A DNA stretch of 36,220 nt from Solirubrobacterales bacterium. Its GTDB lineage: Bacteria; Actinomycetota; Thermoleophilia; Solirubrobacterales; Solirubrobacteraceae. Shown here one piece after another: positions 17,956 to 27,784 of this stretch. Each line of letters starts with the position of its first letter. Positions within the stretch are counted from its first letter, which is position 1. The DNA lies in assembly GCA_025963965.1 (NCBI GenBank), contig JAOPZS010000114.1, positions 1 to 36,220 on the forward strand, given 5' to 3'. The notes under the pieces are model-generated. The model was not told the origin of the DNA. It saw only the letters and a list, made by a program, of their open reading frames with translations, and searched no databases. Both the position numbers and the translations under genes were made by a program.

Positions 17956-18651
17956 GTGAGCGTCGGGGAGAAAGACGGTTGCAGGGCGACTGCGGGCACG
18001 TTCCTGGCGGACCTCACCGCCGACGAGCGCGACGCGCTGCAGGAGATCGGCGTGGCTCGCAGCTTCCCGCGCGGCTCTCTGCTGATGTTCCAGAACGAGC
18101 CCGACGATCGCATCATGATGGTGCTCGAGGGGCGCGTGAAGGTGACGCGAACAGACGAGCACGGACGCGATCTGCTGCTGAGCATCCGCGACCCCGGAGA
18201 CGTCCTCGGTGAGCTGGCGTTCATCGACGGGCAATCGCGTGTGGCGTCTGTCACGTCGCTCGATCCGGTGCGGGCGCTGGTGATGCCCGCAGGCGTCTTC
18301 CGCCGGCACCTGGAGACGACGCCGCGCGTCGCCGTCGTGCTTCTCGAGATCGTCGCACGGCGCTTTCGCGACGCCACCGTCCAGCGCACACAGCTTGGGA
18401 CCCTCGACACGATGGCACGCCTCGCCACCCGGATCGTGGAGCTTGCGGAGCGCTACGGGGTGGTCTCCCAGGAGGGGGCGAGCGTCGTGGAGATGCCGAT
18501 CTCCCGTGAGGACATGGCGACCTGGACCGGCGCTTCCCGAGCCGGCCTGGCCGACGCCCTGCGACGGCTCCGCGAGCTGGGCTGGGTCCAGACCGAGGGG
18601 CGCAAGCTGATCGTGCTGGACATCGAGGCGCTTCGCGCCCGCGCCGCCTGA
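17956..18651 (+). CDS. Crp/Fnr-family transcriptional regulator
   Basis: A 231-residue regulator. The cyclic-nucleotide-binding beta-roll spans about 15-125 (FPRGSLLMFQNEPDDRIMMV, GDVLGELAFIDGQSRVASV). The phosphate-binding cassette keeps GELA but has SRVAS in place of the cAMP-binding R-S/T, so the ligand is uncertain, and there is no Fnr cysteine cluster. The dimer helix follows (about 130-160). The winged helix-turn-helix is at 178-225 (ISREDMATWTGASRAGLADA, RELGWVQTEGRKLIVLD). GTG 17956 is chosen because GGGAGGA lies 8 nt upstream; the open frame before it is unsupported. Possible targets are its own gene and the divergent F420-type gene. Confidence 0.92.
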   Translation: MSVGEKDGCRATAGTFLADLTADERDALQEIGVARSFPRGSLLMFQNEPDDRIMMVLEGRVKVTRTDEHGRDLLLSIRDPGDVLGELAFIDGQSRVASVTSLDPVRALVMPAGVFRRHLETTPRVAVVLLEIVARRFRDATVQRTQLGTLDTMARLATRIVELAERYGVVSQEGASVVEMPISREDMATWTGASRAGLADALRRLRELGWVQTEGRKLIVLDIEALRARAA

Positions 18652-18968: not shown

Positions 18969-20696
18969 ATGAGCGAGCCCGATAAGCGCGGGCAGGACGT
19001 CCCTGCCGGCGAGGCGGGTGGCGGTGCCTCGGTGACCGTCGTCGGCGGAGGCATCGCCGGACTCTCAGCAGCGCTGCGACTGGCCGAACGGGGGTACGCC
19101 GTAAAGCTCTACGAGCAGAAGCCGGTGCTCGGCGGCAACCTCGCCTCACGTCCGCGTGGACCGGGTGAGCCAGCGCTGGACATCTATCCCCACATGTTCC
19201 AGGGCTGGTACGAGAACTTCTGGCAGCTGATGGAGGACGTCGGCGTCAAGCAGCAGGACAGCTTCAGCCCGTTCAGCTCCGTCTACCAGCTTCGCCGGCC
19301 CAAGAAGGGCAAGGTCCGCTTCGAGAAGCTGACGAATCCGTACTCCCCCGAGACCCTGATCGAGAACATGTTCTCGGGGCTCGCCTCGCCCGCCGACATG
19401 TTCATCTTCGGCTACGCGAGCCTCGACCTGCAGGCGGAGACGGTGAGCGCCGAGAGGCGCCTGCGGAACATGAGCCTCACGGGCTACCTGCAGAGCAGGC
19501 CGTACATGACGCCCGCTGCCCTCGCCGCATATGAAGCGTTCGTCCTGCGGGTGTGGGGCATACCGGCGTATCTGATCTCGGCGGTCGACTGCCGCACGTA
19601 CGCGGCGTACTGCTTCGGCGCCGCGGAGCAACCCGGCTGGCTGACCAGCGCTTCGGCGCAGACGACCGTGATCGACCCCATCGTCAAAGCCCTCAAAGAC
19701 CACGGCGCAGACGTCGAGACGGGGGTCACCGTCAGCCAGGTCACCGTCAAGCCCACCAAGAAGAAACAACGCTTCGAGGTCGCGACGATGACGACGATCC
19801 GCGACGGGAAACGATCGACCGAGCCGGTCGAGAACCTGGTGCTCGCCGTCCCGCCGGCGGAGCTCTCCCACCTGGTTCGGCACGGTACCCGCGGCAGCCG
19901 GATCGTCGACGCGCTTCCAGGTCTGGTGGAGCTCGCTCGGCTCACCTCGCAGTCGATCCCCGTGCTGAGCGTCGCCATCAACAAGAAGCTCCCCGGCCTG
20001 CCTCGCGAGCCCGTAGCGATCTACGGCTCGAAGCTGAATCTCGCCTTCATAGACATCTCGCAGCTGTGGGCGGGACATTTCGCGCCTGGGAAAACCGTGC
20101 TCGCGGTGTCCTGCTCTGAACGCTTCAGGCTGAGCGGCCCCTCGGCTGATGACAACGCCTTCGAGATGCTGACGGAACTGGCCAAATTTCTCCCGTTCGA
20201 GCCCGGCGACAAATGGGAGGACCCGTCCTCGGACATCGACTGGGTCGCGACGGCGTATGAGCCAAACGCCGACGCGCAGCTCACACTCAACACGATCGGC
20301 ACGGATGCGTGGCGACCGCACCCCGCCCCCAAGTGGGTTCCGAACCTGTTCTTCGCAGGCGACTTCTGTTTGCACGACTTCGGCATCACGACCGTCGAGG
20401 CGGCGGTCGCCACCGGACTGGCCGCCGCGAAAGGAGTGGTCGAAAGGGTGAATCTGGGCGACCCGGTCGAGATCCTGCGTCCTCAGACGCTTCCGAGTGA
20501 GATGTTTCTGGTGCTGCGTTACTCGCTGGTGGCGGCTGCGTACGCGGCCATGGGCTGGTCACGGATGACCGAGGACGACACCGAACCACCCTGGAATCCC
20601 GACCAGCCCGGCAAGAACGAGCGGATGATCGCCGGAGGACCGTCCACGCTGCGATACCTCTTCACTCCCGGGCTGCCACCCCGGGAGAAGGCCTAG
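18969..20696 (+). CDS. FAD-dependent amine-oxidase/phytoene-desaturase-type oxidoreductase
   Basis: A 575-residue flavoprotein. The N-terminal dinucleotide fold is VTVVGGGIAGLSAALRLAERGY (22-43), with Glu49 in YEQKPVLGGNLAS, where GGN is the second FAD contact. The C-terminal FAD motif is NLFFAGDFCLHDFGITTVEAAVATGLAAA (about 465-493). This is the pattern of phytoene desaturase, hydroxysqualene dehydroxylase (HpnE) and related isoprenoid oxidases. A C-terminal tail with a hydrophobic stretch (LRYSLVAAAYAAMGWS) may bind membrane. Lys-rich segments (RRPKKGKVR, KPTKKKQR) are unusual. The substrate is not assignable; the isoprenoid genes at 24376-27199 suggest a polyprenyl substrate. ATG 18969 lacks a strong ribosome site. 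Its stop shares CTAG with the stop of the convergent small gene. Confidence 0.85.
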   Translation: MSEPDKRGQDVPAGEAGGGASVTVVGGGIAGLSAALRLAERGYAVKLYEQKPVLGGNLASRPRGPGEPALDIYPHMFQGWYENFWQLMEDVGVKQQDSFSPFSSVYQLRRPKKGKVRFEKLTNPYSPETLIENMFSGLASPADMFIFGYASLDLQAETVSAERRLRNMSLTGYLQSRPYMTPAALAAYEAFVLRVWGIPAYLISAVDCRTYAAYCFGAAEQPGWLTSASAQTTVIDPIVKALKDHGADVETGVTVSQVTVKPTKKKQRFEVATMTTIRDGKRSTEPVENLVLAVPPAELSHLVRHGTRGSRIVDALPGLVELARLTSQSIPVLSVAINKKLPGLPREPVAIYGSKLNLAFIDISQLWAGHFAPGKTVLAVSCSERFRLSGPSADDNAFEMLTELAKFLPFEPGDKWEDPSSDIDWVATAYEPNADAQLTLNTIGTDAWRPHPAPKWVPNLFFAGDFCLHDFGITTVEAAVATGLAAAKGVVERVNLGDPVEILRPQTLPSEMFLVLRYSLVAAAYAAMGWSRMTEDDTEPPWNPDQPGKNERMIAGGPSTLRYLFTPGLPPREKA

Positions 20697-21022
20697 AAGA
20701 TCGTCGGGGGCCGCTTGCGCTTGGCCGGGGGCCGGCTGACGTGCTCGAGGTCGTGGATGCCGCGGTTGAGCTCGTGGGAGACGCGCTTCACTGAGAGCTC
20801 GCTCGCCGCCAGCATCTCTTTGCGAAGCTTGGCGCCCGCGCTGGCGGCACCGGGCCCCGGTTCCACCGCATCGAACCAGAGGCTCGTCAGCCGCGGCGCT
20901 TTCTTGTACCAGACACTCGCGTAGGCGGCCCCGGCGCGGTAGGCGGTCGCGGCGCCCATGATCGGCGACGCGGCGAGCAGCCGATACAGCCCCGGGCCCG
21001 TCTCCCGATCGGTGGCACTCAC
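20693..21022 (-). CDS. Small helical protein A, paralogue of the protein at 25311
   Basis: A 109-residue protein of a family I do not recognise. It clearly resembles the protein at 25311-25652. Shared positions include YRLL near the start, M-x-A-A-T-A-x-R, a Trp in SVWYKKAPRL, a Gly/Pro-rich linker, LRKEMLAASE and (N/H)RG(I/V)(H/E)DLE followed by RP. The N-terminal half is mildly hydrophobic and helical (IMGAATAYRAGAAYASVWY), possibly membrane-associated; the C-terminal half is an amphipathic helix ending in a basic tail. It is convergent with the FAD oxidoreductase (stops overlap in CTAG). GTG 21022 follows TACGCT by 6 nt, identical to its paralogue, and has no properly spaced Shine-Dalgarno. 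Confidence 0.75.
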   Translation of the reverse strand: MSATDRETGPGLYRLLAASPIMGAATAYRAGAAYASVWYKKAPRLTSLWFDAVEPGPGAASAGAKLRKEMLAASELSVKRVSHELNRGIHDLEHVSRPPAKRKRPPTIF

Positions 21023-21028
21023 ACCTCA

Positions 21029-21034
21029 AGCGTA
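21029..21034 (-). promoter_or_regulatory. -10 hexamer TACGCT for leaderless small protein A
   Basis: On the minus strand TACGCT is followed by 6 nt and GTG 21022. The same hexamer and spacing precede the paralogue at 25652. Confidence 0.5.
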
Positions 21035-21079
21035 GCTCACACACACCTCGTCAGGCGGCCGGGCGGCCCGACTGCACAC

Positions 21080-21085
21080 TATGCT
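21080..21085 (+). promoter_or_regulatory. -10 hexamer TATGCT of the cyclase gene
   Basis: TATGCT (five of six matches to TATAAT) lies 44 nt before ATG 21130, giving a leader that includes AGGGGGC. No clear -35 is seen. Confidence 0.35.
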
Positions 21086-21129
21086 TGCCGCAGTCACTCG
21101 TTGCACTGACCAGCACAGGGGGCGGCGAG

Positions 21130-24100
21130 ATGCAATGTCGGCGCTGTGGTCTCGAGAGCCCGGAGGGGATGAGCTTCTGTGGCCGCTGTGGCACACCGCT
21201 CGGCGAGCCGGTGGCGTTGACGGGCATCGATCCTGAGGGCGGCGATGCTCAGCGCCGCCAGCTCACAGTTCTCTTCTGTGACCTCGTGGGTTCGACCGCG
21301 CTGGCAGAGCGCCTGGATCCAGAGGACTTTCGAGATGCGCTGAGCGGGTATCACGAGGCTTGCGCGATCGGCGTGCAACGCTACGACGGCTATGTCGCGC
21401 AGTACCAGGGGGATGGCGCGATCGCCTACTTCGGCTACCCGCGCGCGCACGAGGACGATGCTCGCCGCGCGGTGCAGGCCGGATTGGAGGTGCTCGACGA
21501 GATCGAGCGGCTGAACGGGCGCCTCGGCGAGCAGCTGGACCTCTCACTCGTCGCCCGCGTCGGCCTTCACACCGGCGTCGCGGTCACCGGCGAGCTCGGC
21601 TCGGGTGCGGCCAGGGAGCGGCACTCCGCCGTCGGGGAGGTGCTGCACGTCGCCGCGCGCGTCCAGGCGCTGGCGCCACCGGGAACAGTCGCCGTGACCG
21701 CGGAGACATTCGCGCTAGTGCGCGGCCATTTCGATGCTCGACCGCTTGGCGCGAGAGAGCTGAAGGGAATTTCCCGCCCCGTCCAGGTTCACGTGATCCG
21801 GCCGCCCGGGCCGGCGGGATCGGCCTCGGAGTTTCACCCCGAGAGCCCCGGCCTCGCGGCGCCGATGGTCGACCGCACCGAGGAGCTCGAGCGCCTCCGG
21901 CAGGCGTGGGGGCGCGCCGCGCACCGCGACGGCACGATCGTGCACGTCTCGGGCGACGCCGGCATCGGCAAGAGCCGCCTCGTCGAGTCGATCCGCTCGC
22001 ACGTCTCGGGTGAGGCCGGCGCCGTCCGCGTGCTCCGCTGCTCCCCAGACCACGCGCACACACCGCTTCACCCCGTGGTGCAGGTGCTCGAGCGCTTGGC
22101 CGGTCTCGACAGGAGCGAGGCGGCCGAGGCGCAGCTCGCACGGCTCGAGGGCTGGCTGCAGAGCAGGGGCGTCGACGCGCGGGAGGCGACGCCGCTGCTT
22201 GCCGATCTGCTCTCGATCGCGCCCGGGGCAGGCGGCGGGGAGACGATGATGCCGCGCGACGCCCGCAACCTCCTGCTCGGCCTGATCGAGCGGCTGCTGG
22301 TGGGGGACACGGACTCATACCCGCTGCTGCTCGTCGGCGAGGATCTCCACTGGGCCGACCCGACCACGATCGAGCTGCTGGAGCGCATCGTCGCTCGGGT
22401 CGCCGGACTGCCGGTGGTTGCGGTGTTCACGTTTCGCCGCGACTACCGCCCGGCGTGGGCGAGATGGGTCGAGGTCAGCGAGATCGAGCTCGGCCCGCTG
22501 GACAGCCAGGACGTACGGGAGCTCGCGGCGATCAGCGCGGCGCAGCTGGACGAGGCTGCTCTGCTCCGCGTCGAGACGGCCGCCGAGGGGGTGCCGCTGT
22601 TCGTCGAGGAGATGGTGAAGCTGCTGAGCGACGACTCCAACGGCGGGAGCCGGAAGGAGGTCGTCCCGGCGACGCTGCAGGGCCTGCTCGCCGAGCGGCT
22701 GGACCGTCTGCCGCAGCTCTCGGGTGTGATCGATCTCGCCGCCGTGCTGGGCAGGGAGTTCGAGGGCGACCTGCTCGCCGCGCTCAGCGCGCTCGACCGT
22801 CGCGACTTCAGATCGGCGGTCGCTCAGCTCACGGCCGAGGAGGTGCTGCGGCCCGTGGAAGGCTCGGGCTTCCGGCTCGAATTCCGCCATGCGCTGCTGC
22901 AGGAGGCGGCATACGCCAGGGTCCTGCGCCGGCGCCGGCGCCTGCTCCACGGGAGAGTCGCCGAGCTGCTCGGTTCGGGCGCCACGCCGGGATGGCGGGC
23001 CCACCCGGAGATGATCGCGCTGCACTGGTCCTCGGCCGAGGAGCCCGGTAAGGCCCTGGACTACTGGGAGCTGGCCGGCAGGCGGGCGCTCAAGAGCGCG
23101 TCGTTCCTCGAGGCCTCAGAGCACTTTCGCCGGGCGGTCGAAGCGCTCGACGAAACCGACCCTGCTCCTGCGCGCGATCTCGAGCGGGGCGAGCTGCTGA
23201 CGCACCGAGGTGCCGCGCTGCAGGCTGGACGCACTCCGGCGGCCGACGTGCGCGGCATCTACGACCGCGCGGCCGAGGCGTACTCGCGAGCCGGCGGTGA
23301 GAAGCACATGGTCCCGGTGATCCGCGGCCGGTTCCTGCTGCACAACGCGCGCGCGGAATACGAGCCGGCCCTGAACGTCGCGAGGGAGATGCTCGCCGCC
23401 GGGCGAGCCGGGCACGAGGCCTGGCTCGCGGAGGGTCACTTCTACCTCGGCTTCACGCAGATGCTGCGTGGCGAGCTGGGCCCGGCGAGAGCGGAGCTGG
23501 AAGCGTGCATACGCTCGCCCGCCGCCTCTGAGAGTCCGGACTACATCCACGAGGCGCACCCCGACCCGGCCGTCGGAGCGCGTGCGTATCTCTCGACCCT
23601 GCTGTGGCACGTCGGCTGCACCGATCAGGCGTTCGCGGTGAGCGACGAGAGCCTCGAGCTGGCCGAGCAAGCGGGGGGGCCCGTGACGCTTGCGCTGGCC
23701 CGCGGCATGCGCTGCGCCCTGCTGCTGCTCGCCGGTCGGGGCGCCGAGCTCGGGGGGTGGCTGGAGAGCACGCGCGTGTTCTGCGTCGAGCGCAACATCG
23801 GCTACTGGAGCGACGTCTGCTCGATGTGGTCGACGTGGCTGGCGGGACTGGCCGGCGAGGATCGCAACGCTCACCGGACGCTCGAGTCAAAGCTCGAGCT
23901 GTACCTCGACTCGGGCGGGCGGGTCGGTGTGCCGCACTTCTACGCTCTGCTCGCCGAAGCGCGGCTCGCCGCGGGCGAGGAGCTGCTCGCACGCGAGGCC
24001 GTGGAGGCGGCCCAGGCGCATATCGACGAGGTCGGCGAACGCTTCTACGAGCCGGAAGTCCAGCGCTTGACCGGGCGCGTGCTGATGGCCGGGGCCAACC

Positions 24101-24345
24101 GCGATCCCGCCGCGGCAGCCGCGGCCTTCGAACGCGCGATCCGCTCGGCGCACGACCAGGGCGCGCGGCTGCTCGAGCTGCGCAGCGCGATTGCGCTCGC
24201 GCGCCATCAGCGCGCGCTCGGCGAGCCCTGCGCCTCGATCGGCACCGTCGCCTCGCTGTGCGAGTGGTTCGGGGCGGACTCGACGATCCCCGATGTGGTG
24301 CGGGCGCGGGCGACGCTCGTCGCGAGCGGGGAGCACCCGCATTAG
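21130..24345 (+). CDS. Zinc-ribbon, class III cyclase, AAA ATPase and TPR regulator
   Basis: A 1071-residue multidomain protein. Residues 3-24 are a zinc ribbon (CRRCG and CGRCG). Residues 43-222 are a class III nucleotidyl cyclase domain: the metal aspartates are Asp51 (LFCDLVGST) and Asp95 (YQGDGAIAYFG), and the Arg of the dimer-interface motif is Arg177. The transition-state asparagine position is His173 (GEVLHVAAR rather than the usual G-E-x-x-N-x-A-A-R), so catalysis may be weak or lost. Residues 247-600 are an AAA/STAND ATPase with Walker A GDAGIGKS (275-282) and a Walker B-like LLLVGEDLHWADPTT. The rest is TPR-like helical repeats. Such proteins are common signalling hubs in actinobacteria. 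ATG 21130 is chosen because the zinc ribbon begins there and AGGGGGC is upstream. No partner is evident. Confidence 0.88.
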   Translation: MQCRRCGLESPEGMSFCGRCGTPLGEPVALTGIDPEGGDAQRRQLTVLFCDLVGSTALAERLDPEDFRDALSGYHEACAIGVQRYDGYVAQYQGDGAIAYFGYPRAHEDDARRAVQAGLEVLDEIERLNGRLGEQLDLSLVARVGLHTGVAVTGELGSGAARERHSAVGEVLHVAARVQALAPPGTVAVTAETFALVRGHFDARPLGARELKGISRPVQVHVIRPPGPAGSASEFHPESPGLAAPMVDRTEELERLRQAWGRAAHRDGTIVHVSGDAGIGKSRLVESIRSHVSGEAGAVRVLRCSPDHAHTPLHPVVQVLERLAGLDRSEAAEAQLARLEGWLQSRGVDAREATPLLADLLSIAPGAGGGETMMPRDARNLLLGLIERLLVGDTDSYPLLLVGEDLHWADPTTIELLERIVARVAGLPVVAVFTFRRDYRPAWARWVEVSEIELGPLDSQDVRELAAISAAQLDEAALLRVETAAEGVPLFVEEMVKLLSDDSNGGSRKEVVPATLQGLLAERLDRLPQLSGVIDLAAVLGREFEGDLLAALSALDRRDFRSAVAQLTAEEVLRPVEGSGFRLEFRHALLQEAAYARVLRRRRRLLHGRVAELLGSGATPGWRAHPEMIALHWSSAEEPGKALDYWELAGRRALKSASFLEASEHFRRAVEALDETDPAPARDLERGELLTHRGAALQAGRTPAADVRGIYDRAAEAYSRAGGEKHMVPVIRGRFLLHNARAEYEPALNVAREMLAAGRAGHEAWLAEGHFYLGFTQMLRGELGPARAELEACIRSPAASESPDYIHEAHPDPAVGARAYLSTLLWHVGCTDQAFAVSDESLELAEQAGGPVTLALARGMRCALLLLAGRGAELGGWLESTRVFCVERNIGYWSDVCSMWSTWLAGLAGEDRNAHRTLESKLELYLDSGGRVGVPHFYALLAEARLAAGEELLAREAVEAAQAHIDEVGERFYEPEVQRLTGRVLMAGANRDPAAAAAAFERAIRSAHDQGARLLELRSAIALARHQRALGEPCASIGTVASLCEWFGADSTIPDVVRARATLVASGEHPH

Positions 24346-24375
24346 CCGCAGCGTAGGGCGAGGCGCCAGCGCGGC

Positions 24376-25314
24376 TCAGCGGGTGGAGAGCCGGCGCACC
24401 TCGTGCACGAGTGCGATCAACGGCGCGGGATCGCCGGCCACGCGCACGGCCTCGGCGCACGCCTCCTGCGCGATCCCGTCGAGCACGCTCTCGGCGCCGG
24501 CCAGCTGCTCGCGATAGGCGTCCCCCAACGCGCGCATGCGCGACGAATCGTCGTCGTCGATCAAGAACAGCTCGCGTACCCGGGGATCGCGGATCGCAAG
24601 TGCGGCAGGCAGCGTCAGGATCCCGTCTCGGATGTCCTCCTCGCCGCCGCCGCCCAGCGCCTCGAGGCCGCGCTGGTCTCCGACGTCGTCACAGCCGTGG
24701 TAGAGGATGCCGAGCAGGCGGCCATACGGGCGCAGCTGCTGCGAGCGCCCGCCCAGCACGGCGCATATCTCGAACATCGAGCCCGTGTCCTCGCCTGCGA
24801 TGCGTCGCCAGTCCTCGGTGCCCAGCGGCTGGCGGCGCAGGCGCCACTGCAGGCACTCGGCACCGGCCAGGCGGCGCAGCAGCTCGGCGACGTGGCGGGT
24901 CGCGAACGGGTCGCCGGCCACGAGTTCGAAGGCGTCGGCGACGAGATAGCCGGAAGCCATCAGGGCGTGCAGCCGGCCGAACCCCGCCTGCAACGTCGGC
25001 ACGCCGCGGCGCAGCTCCGAGCCGTCCAGGACGTCGTCGACGACCAGCGACATGTTGTGGATCAGCTCGATGACCAGCGCCAGCTCCACCGACTCCTGCG
25101 TGATCTCCTGCTCGCCCAGCGCGCGTCGGCAGGCGAACAGCGTGAGCGGCCGGAAGTACTTCGGCTGCCCGGCGAACGCGCTCGCGAGCGGCTCGCGCAG
25201 CTCGGCGTCGACCGCCGTCAGCCACAGCTCGAGCCGGTCGCGCAGCAGATCGATCTCACGTGTCGCGCCGAGCGCGGAGACGACGCCGTCGGTGACGAGC
25301 TGCGGTGCGCTCAC
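24376..25314 (-). CDS. Polyprenyl diphosphate synthase
   Basis: A 312-residue trans-isoprenyl diphosphate synthase. It condenses isopentenyl diphosphate onto an allylic primer. The first Asp-rich motif is DDVLD (93-97), followed by GSELRRGVPT as in the family; the second is DDVGD (209-213). The usual N-terminal GGKR-x-RP is GQPKYFRP (49-56), and the helix motif usually K-T-A/G-x-L/M-F is D176-T-G-S-M-F, so the lysine that contacts pyrophosphate is replaced by Asp. Product length cannot be stated safely. It is the third gene of a minus-strand operon: its GTG overlaps the stop of small protein B as GTGA, and a geranylgeranyl-reductase-type flavoprotein is upstream, so a reduced polyprenyl product is a reasonable inference. 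Confidence 0.92.
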   Translation of the reverse strand: MSAPQLVTDGVVSALGATREIDLLRDRLELWLTAVDAELREPLASAFAGQPKYFRPLTLFACRRALGEQEITQESVELALVIELIHNMSLVVDDVLDGSELRRGVPTLQAGFGRLHALMASGYLVADAFELVAGDPFATRHVAELLRRLAGAECLQWRLRRQPLGTEDWRRIAGEDTGSMFEICAVLGGRSQQLRPYGRLLGILYHGCDDVGDQRGLEALGGGGEEDIRDGILTLPAALAIRDPRVRELFLIDDDDSSRMRALGDAYREQLAGAESVLDGIAQEACAEAVRVAGDPAPLIALVHEVRRLSTR

Positions 25315-25652
25315 GGCTTCGCGCGAGCGCGACGCTTCGGATCCCCAGCGGGCTCTTCGCCGGGCCGCGTGAACGTGTCGAGATCCTCGACTCCGCGGTG
25401 CACCTCGCGCAGCACGACGTCAGCGGACTCGCGGGCCACGGCGAGCAGCTCGTCGCGCAGCCGCCCGCTCGCGGGACCGGGGTGCGGAGCGCCCTCGGGC
25501 GGCGCCTTCGCGCCCAGCTCGGAGGCGAGCTTGACGAGCGGGGGCATCCGCTGGGACCAGAGCTCCACGCAGCCGAGACCCACACGGGCGGCGGTCGCGG
25601 CCGTCATCAGCGCTCCGTTCCTGAGAAGCCGATATCCGTCCTCCTCGCGCAC
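25311..25652 (-). CDS. Small helical protein B, paralogue of the protein at 20693
   Basis: A 113-residue protein of an unrecognised family, homologous by eye to protein A (20693-21022). The shared skeleton is GYRLL...LM-AATA-R, a Trp in CVELWSQRMPPL, a Pro/Gly linker, GRLRDELLAVARES and HRGVEDLDTFTRPG, then a basic tail. It overlaps the polyprenyl synthase start by 4 nt (GTGA) and lies 41 nt after the geranylgeranyl-reductase-type gene, so it is embedded in an isoprenoid operon. It may serve as a scaffold, membrane adaptor or accessory subunit, which is inference only. GTG 25652 follows TACGCT by 6 nt; the longer open frame upstream overlaps the flavoprotein gene and is not similar to protein A. 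Confidence 0.75.
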   Translation of the reverse strand: MREEDGYRLLRNGALMTAATAARVGLGCVELWSQRMPPLVKLASELGAKAPPEGAPHPGPASGRLRDELLAVARESADVVLREVHRGVEDLDTFTRPGEEPAGDPKRRARAKP

Positions 25653-25658
25653 GCGAAA

Positions 25659-25664
25659 AGCGTA
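25659..25664 (-). promoter_or_regulatory. -10 hexamer TACGCT for leaderless small protein B
   Basis: On the minus strand TACGCT is followed by 6 nt and GTG 25652, in the 41-nt gap after the flavoprotein stop. It would give B and the synthase their own transcript. Confidence 0.5.
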
Positions 25665-25693: not shown

Positions 25694-27199
25694 TCACATC
25701 TCGCCGAGCAGGCCCGCGCCCCGGGGGTCGCTCCCTGCGCCTGCGGCCGTCGAGAGCAGAGTGCGCCACTGCTGCTCCATGTCGCGCATCCACTGCACGT
25801 GCCACACGGGATCGCTGAGCAGCGAGCGTGAGAGCGCGAGCGGCCAATCGAGCAGATCCGACGGAGTGACACCATGACCCTCGCCGCCCCCTCCGGCAGC
25901 GGCGCCTGGCATGACCTGCCTCCACGCGAGCAGCAGGTCCTCGAGCGAGTGGCTCCAGACCTGGCCGATGATGTCCAGGGGGCGCAGCTCGATGCCTCCG
26001 AAATAGCTGCCGGAGACGCGGGCGAAGTCCTCGTCGCGCTGGGCGATCTCACAGCCGCGCGCGAGCGCCCGCAGCCACGGGCGCTTGAGATGGCGATTGC
26101 GCAGCATCACCGCGCAGAAGTCCAGGAAGACCATCGACGGGTCGAAGTAGGCGTGGAACGCCCGCTCGTAGCCGGCGAGCGCAGAGGCGCTGAAGTCACC
26201 CTGCTCGAGCGCCGCGATCAGCACCGGGGCGGCGAGCAGCGCGGACTCCATCCCCGGTGTTATGCCCTCGCCCGTCATCGGGTCCACGAAGCAGCCCGCG
26301 TCGCCGATCAGCACGCCGCCGTCGAAGCGGTTTGCGGCAGCGGCGCCGAAGGTCCGTACGATCCCGCCGATCGGCTTGGAGACGAGCTCGATCTCGGCGC
26401 CGCGCGGATGGTGCAGGCGAAGGCCCGCGAGGAACTCGTCGAAGAGGGCTGGGAGATGCACGTCGAAGCGCTCGCGCGCCTCGGCCAGCAGGCCGACGCC
26501 GAGGTTCACGCGCCCGTCGCCGGAAGGGAACATCCAGGCGTAGCCGGGGAACGTGCTGCCGTCGAAGAAGATCTCCGCCGTGCCCTGCCCGCTCTCCTCG
26601 GCAGCGATCACGGCGTAGGCGCGCCGGGCGAGGACCGTCCTGGCGGGATCGGCGGCGTCGAGCCCCTGGCTCTTGGCGACCACCGAGTTGACCCCGTCGG
26701 CGCCGACGAGCAGCCGGGCGCGGTAGCGGACCGTCGCGCCGCCGTGCTCGGCGCTCACCTCGACGCCGCCGGCCGTCGCGCCGGCGTCGAGCACCGTCGT
26801 CTGCTCGTCGACCTTCGCACCGGCACGCGCGGCCGCCTGGAGCATCGCCTCGTCGAGCTGACCGCGCGGGATCGTGTAGCCGTGGGCCTCGAGGTGGTCG
26901 CTCTCGCCGTAGAACGGGATCGGGCCGTCGTAGCGGCGCTCCCAGTCGACGTAGGTGGCCGTGCGGGTGATCCTCGGCGGGGATGAGCGCTCCAAGGAGT
27001 CCAGCGCGCCCATCGCCCGCAGGACCTCGAGGCCGCGCGGGTCCACGTAGTCGCCACAGACCTTCTCGCGCGGGAACCGGCGTCGCTCGAGCACCGCGAC
27101 GTCGACGCCCTTGCGTGCCAGCGCCCAGGCGAGCGTGCTCCCGGACGGTCCGCCGCCGACGACGATCACATCGGCCGAGCGCTCCGACTCGGCGCTCAT
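25694..27199 (-). CDS. Geranylgeranyl-reductase-family flavoprotein
   Basis: A 501-residue FAD-dependent oxidoreductase of the geranylgeranyl reductase family. The FAD fold is VIVVGGGPSGSTLAWALA (11-28), followed by ERRRFPREKVCGD (38-50), the family's K-x-C-G-(D/G) motif. LLVGADGVNSVVAK (163-176) and VLIGDAGCFVDPMTGEGITPG (297-317) are the DG and GD boxes of this flavoprotein class. Such enzymes saturate isoprenoid chains of archaeal lipids, chlorophyll phytyl or menaquinone (MenJ). Residues about 400-501 are an extra C-terminal segment with several Trp (LLDWPLALSRSLLSDPVWHV) not typical of short members. It is first gene of the operon with small protein B and the polyprenyl synthase. The ribosome site before ATG 27199 is weak. 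Confidence 0.9.
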   Translation of the reverse strand: MSAESERSADVIVVGGGPSGSTLAWALARKGVDVAVLERRRFPREKVCGDYVDPRGLEVLRAMGALDSLERSSPPRITRTATYVDWERRYDGPIPFYGESDHLEAHGYTIPRGQLDEAMLQAAARAGAKVDEQTTVLDAGATAGGVEVSAEHGGATVRYRARLLVGADGVNSVVAKSQGLDAADPARTVLARRAYAVIAAEESGQGTAEIFFDGSTFPGYAWMFPSGDGRVNLGVGLLAEARERFDVHLPALFDEFLAGLRLHHPRGAEIELVSKPIGGIVRTFGAAAANRFDGGVLIGDAGCFVDPMTGEGITPGMESALLAAPVLIAALEQGDFSASALAGYERAFHAYFDPSMVFLDFCAVMLRNRHLKRPWLRALARGCEIAQRDEDFARVSGSYFGGIELRPLDIIGQVWSHSLEDLLLAWRQVMPGAAAGGGGEGHGVTPSDLLDWPLALSRSLLSDPVWHVQWMRDMEQQWRTLLSTAAGAGSDPRGAGLLGEM

Positions 27200-27323: not shown

Positions 27324-27388
27324 GTCGCGCCGTACGCGGCGCTGATCGATAGTCGACGTGCACCTATGCCGGAGAGGAGTTGAACATC

Positions 27389-27784
27389 GTGCAGACGCGC
27401 CAGCTCGATCGGACGGAGTGGAGCGAGTACCTCTCGAGGGTGGCGGCCGAGTCCGTACGGGTGACCGTCGAGCCCCGCAGAGAATGCGCAGCGGACAGCT
27501 ACGGGGTCTGGCGCGCGCTGCGCAGAGTGCGCTACGACAGCGATGAGGACCTGCTGACGGTCGTCGCGAGCGGCCGCTCGGTGGTGCGCTTCTTCGTCAA
27601 GGCTCCCCGCCGGATCACGCTCACCGACGAACGGGCCGGCAGCGCGATCACCGTCACCGACCGGGCCGACCTCGACACCGTGATCCGCTTCTCATCGCGG
27701 TCACCGGGAAGCCCACCGGCTGCGCGCCCGCGTCTTGGAGGCCGCTCGTCGACGAGGCGGGAAGGACAGCTCGCCGCGAGGTGA
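27389..27784 (+). CDS. DUF5335-like small protein
   Basis: A 131-residue protein. The beginning TRQLDRTEWSEYLSRVAAE and the alternating strands (VRVTVEPR, LLTVVASG, ITVTDRADLDTVIRFSS) resemble the DUF5335 family of small actinobacterial beta-rich proteins of unknown function; the assignment is by pattern only. The C-terminal 28 residues are Arg/Ser/Pro-rich and look disordered. GTG 27389 is preferred because GGAGAGGAG lies 9 nt upstream; a TTG at 27380 abuts that site. It precedes the LysR gene by 12 nt on the same strand and is probably co-transcribed with it. Confidence 0.65.
   Translation: MQTRQLDRTEWSEYLSRVAAESVRVTVEPRRECAADSYGVWRALRRVRYDSDEDLLTVVASGRSVVRFFVKAPRRITLTDERAGSAITVTDRADLDTVIRFSSRSPGSPPAARPRLGGRSSTRREGQLAAR

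Follow-up and report, generated by a model that had tools for sequence, protein, structure and literature searches.

The genes for HexA and HepS are encoded beside their polyprenyl synthase. Prenyl synthases with small non-catalytic subunits have been described (PMC7839719), and HexA, HepS, and plant GPPS SSU are small proteins of this kind. Here we describe a locus on a 36,220-nucleotide stretch of DNA from a Solirubrobacterales bacterium (contig JAOPZS010000114.1; the whole stretch is called the window) in which a small protein, B, is encoded directly upstream of a polyprenyl synthase (PPS), and a paralogue of B, termed A, is encoded some distance away beside an amine-oxidase-type flavoprotein (AO). 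Like HexA, HepS, and GPPS SSU, B appears to be a small non-catalytic protein that probably works with a polyprenyl synthase. It differs from them in having no sequence match to them (a profile search of PDB and searches of Pfam and NCBIfam at E ≤ 1 found no similarity to HexA or HepS), in its conserved C-terminal peptide, and in its link to AO; moreover, no small gene lies beside PPS in the loci where AO itself bears the peptide. In all 21 loci compared, the product of the gene immediately preceding PPS has R-x-x-[RKNH]-[AVPT]-K-[RPQS]-COOH as its C terminus. Judged from these sequences, the new element of the locus is a transferable C-terminal motif.

The enzymes of the locus also have described relatives. 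AO (18969–20696, plus strand) falls in the same superfamily as the HpnE/phytoene-desaturase-type flavoproteins (TIGR03467, PF01593). It scores 102.9 bits against HpnE, below the cut-off of 283.05, and the AO of Sphingomonadaceae differs further in a C-terminal extension that carries the tail motif. A second flavoprotein of the geranylgeranyl reductase type (GGR; 25694–27199, minus strand) is above the cut-off of the geranylgeranyl reductase family TIGR02032 (199.5 versus 158.8 bits), whereas it is far below the cut-offs for MenJ and DGGGPL reductase. PPS (24376–25314, minus strand) matches PF00348 with 111.4 bits and, with both Asp-rich motifs (DDVLD and DDVGD), qualifies as a polyprenyl synthase. 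It represents a separate subfamily: in four genomes traced from their loci, a profile of the module enzyme gave 385–505 bits for PPS and at most 65.2 bits for the next synthase. The G154 copy of PPS is split by a frameshift into two frames (L030:1787-2571) and is either broken or misassembled.

A C-terminal motif encoded next to a polyprenyl synthase

The 21 loci are those of the window, G012, G060, G204, G154, L037 (Acidimicrobiales), L038 (uncultured), L040 and L079 (Rhodobacteraceae), and L039 and L068–L078 (Sphingomonadaceae). Their contents were counted over all open frames with profiles built from module proteins; contig ends truncate L037 and L038. AO and PPS were both present in 21 of 21 loci; 16 of these loci had been found through PPS, so that the presence of PPS there is by selection and that of AO is not. 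GGR was found in 15 of the 21. An earlier note on this DNA had tied A and B to flavoprotein and prenyl synthase genes and had proposed that the two proteins share an accessory role, such as membrane docking or chaperoning, for flavoproteins that act on polyprenyl substrates. This proposal is supported in part. The link itself stands, and relatives in other genera, families, and phyla adjoin the same PPS and AO. The partners need to be redrawn, however: the constant ones are PPS and AO rather than GGR, and by sequence B, not A, is the conserved member of the pair.

In the window, B (25311–25652, minus strand; 113 amino acids, GTG start) ends in RRARAKP (25314–25334, minus strand), and its stop overlaps the start of PPS in the sequence GTGA. 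The Arg at position −7 and the Lys at position −2 of this tail are invariant in all 21 loci. The tail is borne by the small protein (B and its relatives) in nine loci and by AO with a C-terminal extension in the twelve Sphingomonadaceae loci, which have no small gene between AO and PPS; it never occurs on both proteins. Among the 300 complete genes called in the loci the motif was present in 19, every one a tail-bearer, and in none of the 281 others. The B genes of G060 and L037 were not called, and their tails were counted from direct reading. The gene finder used was simple and crude: it also missed a Crp gene in G204, which came to light once every open frame was searched. Some of the 281 other genes are therefore false, and some true genes are absent from that set; 9 of the 281 have Lys at −2, 31 have Arg at −7, and two have both.

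The tail shows synonymous codon changes and is followed by TGA, TAA, or TAG, and its spacing to PPS ranges from an overlap to a gap of 97 nucleotides (called starts), which argues for selection on the protein and against a ribosome-binding artefact. A degenerate DNA pattern for tails of the RRW type was scanned over the whole genomes of 12 module carriers and of 12 members of the same family that lack the module. The module AO was found in 11 of the 12 module genomes; the tail in the twelfth reads RRHRVKR, with His in place of Trp. The 24 genomes also yielded five other matches, whereas the reversed pattern gave six. TGG closes three of these five; the remaining two, from a control genome and from G1251, finish in a stop codon and do not coincide with the end of a called gene.

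A proposed docking role for the tail and its alternatives

AlphaFold2, run with ten aligned members, predicted B as a hairpin of two long helices (residues 3–48 and 60–95; predicted local distance difference test score, pLDDT, 85.8 overall) followed by a flexible or disordered tail (pLDDT about 54). Because the peptide alternates between the small protein and a flavoprotein beside PPS in every locus, the pattern is best explained by a peptide that links AO to PPS; its presence on AO where no small gene precedes PPS is stronger evidence for coupling than adjacency. Our leading explanation, which we put forward tentatively, is that B acts as an adaptor and uses its tail to dock the flavoprotein onto PPS or a different partner in the module; that some other bacteria have the short conserved tail on the flavoenzyme itself suggests a plug holding the enzymes together. 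The hairpin of B and its flexible C-terminal peptide would couple AO to a dedicated PPS, and the polyprenyl chain made by PPS would reach the flavoenzymes through this coupling. The docking element would be the C-terminal motif, with PPS its likeliest target. The Sphingomonadaceae AO bears the peptide itself, with no adaptor gene between AO and PPS. A, which lacks the peptide, may pair with B or with AO. B probably has a leaderless promoter to itself and is likely to be translated along with PPS. We infer from these patterns the binding of protein to protein, the partner of the tail, the transcript, the channelling of the polyprenyl chain, and the identity of the product.

Most module PPSs whose end was read finish in a sequence of the R-x-L-S-x-R type, those of L038 and L079 being different, and this end of PPS is a candidate partner surface for the tail. 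With greater reserve, we propose a wider reading in which the docking peptide is transferable and brings PPS and the flavoenzymes together as an isoprenoid metabolon, one that is rare, scattered by horizontal spread, and perhaps under cyclic-nucleotide control; in evolution the peptide would stay next to the synthase and move between hairpin adaptor and flavoenzyme. If true, a tail of seven residues would explain what brings a synthase together with isoprenoid-type flavoenzymes in a pathway that occurs in two phyla, and genomes could be mined for this pathway with the tail as a tag.

Several points weigh against the docking proposal. The 21 loci are not independent: the signal comes from about three lineages. 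The motif was derived from the very loci in which it was counted, and further searches found no unseen ones, which makes the count a measure of contrast and not a blind test. The two other proteins with both fixed residues end in RLLGNKV (the PPS of L079) and RKLVVKP (in G060), the latter close to the motif. When the AO extension was compared with the B set, the body did not align and the match covered nine tail columns (hhalign E 0.19; E 0.019, also over nine columns, with the set of L038 and Rhodobacteraceae small proteins), and a common origin therefore rests on a short motif. The L038 and Rhodobacteraceae small proteins may be distant relatives of B, and the link is weak: hhalign gave E 0.001 with a probability of 21% and an alignment colinear nearly to the C terminus, and further runs gave E 0.0011 and 0.0038. 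The structure models are of single chains, and the model of AO with its tail extension (pLDDT 42.2) was too poor to use. Finally, the tail could have a target other than PPS.

A doubtful alternative is that B serves as a regulatory small subunit of PPS that affects chain length or stability, like HexA of the Micrococcus luteus hexaprenyl diphosphate synthase, and that the link to AO is secondary. The position of B directly upstream of PPS with a GTGA overlap, its predicted small and helical nature, and the precedent of small non-catalytic prenyl synthase subunits (PMC7839719) are all consistent with such a role. It does not account for the twelve loci in which PPS has no small gene directly upstream. 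Furthermore, both Asp-rich motifs were present in every PPS in which they were read, and PPS is not specially akin to HexB among PDB synthases (1.1e-16, versus 1.3e-22 for the best). Similarity of B itself to HexA was also not apparent: a Foldseek search of the B model against PDB gave a best E of 0.8, with none significant and no HexA among the 50 fold matches listed, and the B profile had a single match among PDB sequences, a designed protein at E 2.6.

It is unlikely that the tail binds a membrane surface or an anionic lipid substrate to place the flavoprotein or PPS, with B acting as a membrane anchor or phasin-like coat. In its favour, the tail is basic and in many members contains Trp or Tyr, the second helix of B has an amphipathic character (hydrophobic moment 0.32–0.59), and the enzymes are of isoprenoid type. 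Against this, the motif is very regular for a charge patch, with Arg fixed at −7, Lys fixed at −2, and a fixed distance to the C terminus, and the net charge ranges from 0 to +8 in six B-type proteins but from −7 to −3 in the proteins of L038, L040, and L079. The phasin 5ip0 appeared at rank 33 with E 3.4, which is no evidence of kinship, and no Pfam or NCBIfam model at E ≤ 1 places A or B among the phasins.

Cyclic-nucleotide proteins recur around the module. The window encodes a protein with class III adenylate/guanylate cyclase and AAA ATPase domains (21169–24345, plus strand), found in 13 of the 21 loci, and its gene overlaps the start of AO by 4 nucleotides in G060, G204, and G154 and overlaps GGR in L038 (called starts). 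This recurrence and the overlaps make cyclic-nucleotide signalling seem tied to the pathway. A Crp-type regulator that binds cyclic nucleotide monophosphates (cNMP) adjoins the module in five loci (the window, at 17956–18651 on the plus strand, G012, G204, L040, and L069). In six Sphingomonadaceae loci (L073–L078) a protein of 540–544 amino acids adjoins PPS; both of those tested (L074:9520-11142 and L078:6694-8316) have a cNMP-binding domain fused to a thioredoxin-reductase-like domain, and these fusions sit in loci without a cyclase in the fetched stretch. The tail might accordingly be imagined as a sensor input read by the cyclase-ATPase, the module being a cyclic-nucleotide-linked switch for isoprenoid synthesis. 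We consider this quite improbable, as 7 of the 12 Sphingomonadaceae loci keep the tail with no cyclase in the fetched ~17 kb, the rest of those genomes not having been searched.

We give almost no credence to the idea that PPS and the tail-bearing proteins serve as cargo for a family 2B encapsulin, whose shells carry cNMP domains (PMC8346489). Among NCBIfam models PPS scores best with the family 2 encapsulin polyprenyl transferase cargo model, but its 74.8 bits are far below the cut-off of 450. None of 16 module genomes (several of them incomplete) has a shell-model match over cut-off; 14 of the 16 have partial shell matches, of which those listed all fall between profile positions 54 and 228, a part that plain cNMP domains match as well, and the same search also gives matches in 8 of 14 control genomes.

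Homology and distribution of the family

A (20693–21022, minus strand; 109 amino acids, GTG start) is encoded convergently with AO, and the stops of the two genes share CTAG at 20693–20696. The earlier note had placed A and B, their GTG starts, and the CTAG and GTGA overlaps correctly, and its proposal that the two are homologous paralogues was borne out by BLASTP (E 4e-15, 36% identity over 95 columns; E 9.5e-10 when the whole own genome, 3.03 Mb in 147 contigs of which the window is C64, was searched) and by hhalign of the B set against the A pair (E 4.1e-16). Neither protein matched a Pfam or NCBIfam model at E ≤ 1, which agrees with its description of the family as unrecognised. Other features listed there need correction. 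The Trp called conserved is absent from two of seven aligned proteins (L030 and L031) and from L037; across the ten members that were aligned, R23, E83, and R86 (B numbering) are invariant. A basic tail had been given as common to both proteins, and the basic tails of A and B are different features, since A and its G012 counterpart A′ lack the C-terminal motif.

A tree of eight rows grouped A with A′ (support 89/92, short of the strict threshold), and the pair fell into a set that also holds window B and the G012 B (86/98, drawn open), which fits a duplication in the lineage of the window. From the sequences available, A is a lineage-specific duplicate of B seen in two genomes, and nothing general can be said about it for that reason. 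With the family profile, no third paralogue was detected in the own genome at E ≤ 0.01 among the best 20 candidates scored. A candidate at G000:C6 (E 0.0056 with A alone as query) was dropped, as the family profile failed to recover it at that threshold. L040 encodes a 99-amino acid protein (L040:9154-9453) between AO and the tail-bearing protein; it has no detectable similarity to B and is a possible second accessory like A.

Searches for A and B in 60 relatives gave clear matches in G012 and G060, and among 24 genomes of the genus clear members were found in the own genome and G012 only. In 232 genomes of the order, ten had a match at E ≤ 0.01, of which five were strong at E ≤ 3e-26 (G000, G012, G060, G154, and G204); in 399 genomes of the class, twelve had a match and three were strong. 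The best 20 or 11 candidates per genome were scored in these order and class searches, and members may have been missed. The weak matches (E 1.4e-4 to 0.01, in five of the ten order genomes and nine of the twelve class genomes) were judged to be chance from their scores and partial coverage. The same held for a weak B match in G004 (E 8.8e-4) that spans a stop, and inspection of the locus of the weak match in G109 revealed no module.

PPS was used as a marker for more distant loci. A search of a species-level genome collection with narrow peptide patterns, by which many loci will have been missed, returned eight loci, four of them already known (G012, G060, G154, and G204). PPS was present in 1 of 396 genomes of a phylum-wide sample (the query itself), in 2 of 295 genomes of the family of Allosediminivita pacifica (which we take to be Rhodobacteraceae), and in 12 of 298 genomes of the family of Allopontixanthobacter confluentis (presumably Sphingomonadaceae). 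A sample of 200 genomes of the class of Allosediminivita pacifica gave the query alone and no new locus, and plasmid and viral collections yielded no PPS relative. As far as these searches reach, the module is rare and scattered over Actinomycetota and Alphaproteobacteria, a distribution that suggests horizontal spread. No paper describing the module was among those listed in searches of the open-licence PMC literature.

Start architecture

Leaderless actinobacterial genes have TANNNT about 12 nucleotides before the start codon, as described in PMC3160421, and TANNNT is given as the mycobacterial −10 motif in PMC3898074. The GTG starts of A and B each follow TACGCT by exactly 6 nucleotides, as the earlier note had observed (minus strand; 21029–21034 for A, and 25659–25664, between GGR and B, for B). 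The first T thus falls at −12, and the hexamer is the −10 box of a probable leaderless promoter in each case. The start of B is the GTG picked in that note; the simple gene finder favours a GTG 45 bases further upstream. TANNNT was present in all seven Thermoleophilia members covered (A, B, A′ and B′ of G012, and the members of G060, G204, and G154), with the first T at −12 to −14. In three of them (B and the proteins of G060 and G154), for which the gene finder gave other starts or none, the start was set by hand to agree with relatives. Each of these members would probably have its own leaderless promoter, and A, B, and the five relatives show no difference from the leaderless genes described.

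The signal is widespread in these genomes. Of 112 called genes from the window and four relatives, 15 had TANNNT with the first T at −11 to −14 (0, 7, 5, and 3 by position), a density of 3.75 per position compared with 0.425 per position at −20 to −59. Because TANNNT also precedes five unrelated genes of the window, the shared start architecture, offered earlier as a trait of the family, is on this evidence an ordinary leaderless promoter signal and nothing special to A and B.

Near the module, both genomes of the same genus encode a protein of 134–145 amino acids (27380–27784 in the window and L014:9681-10118), and the two look alike by eye.

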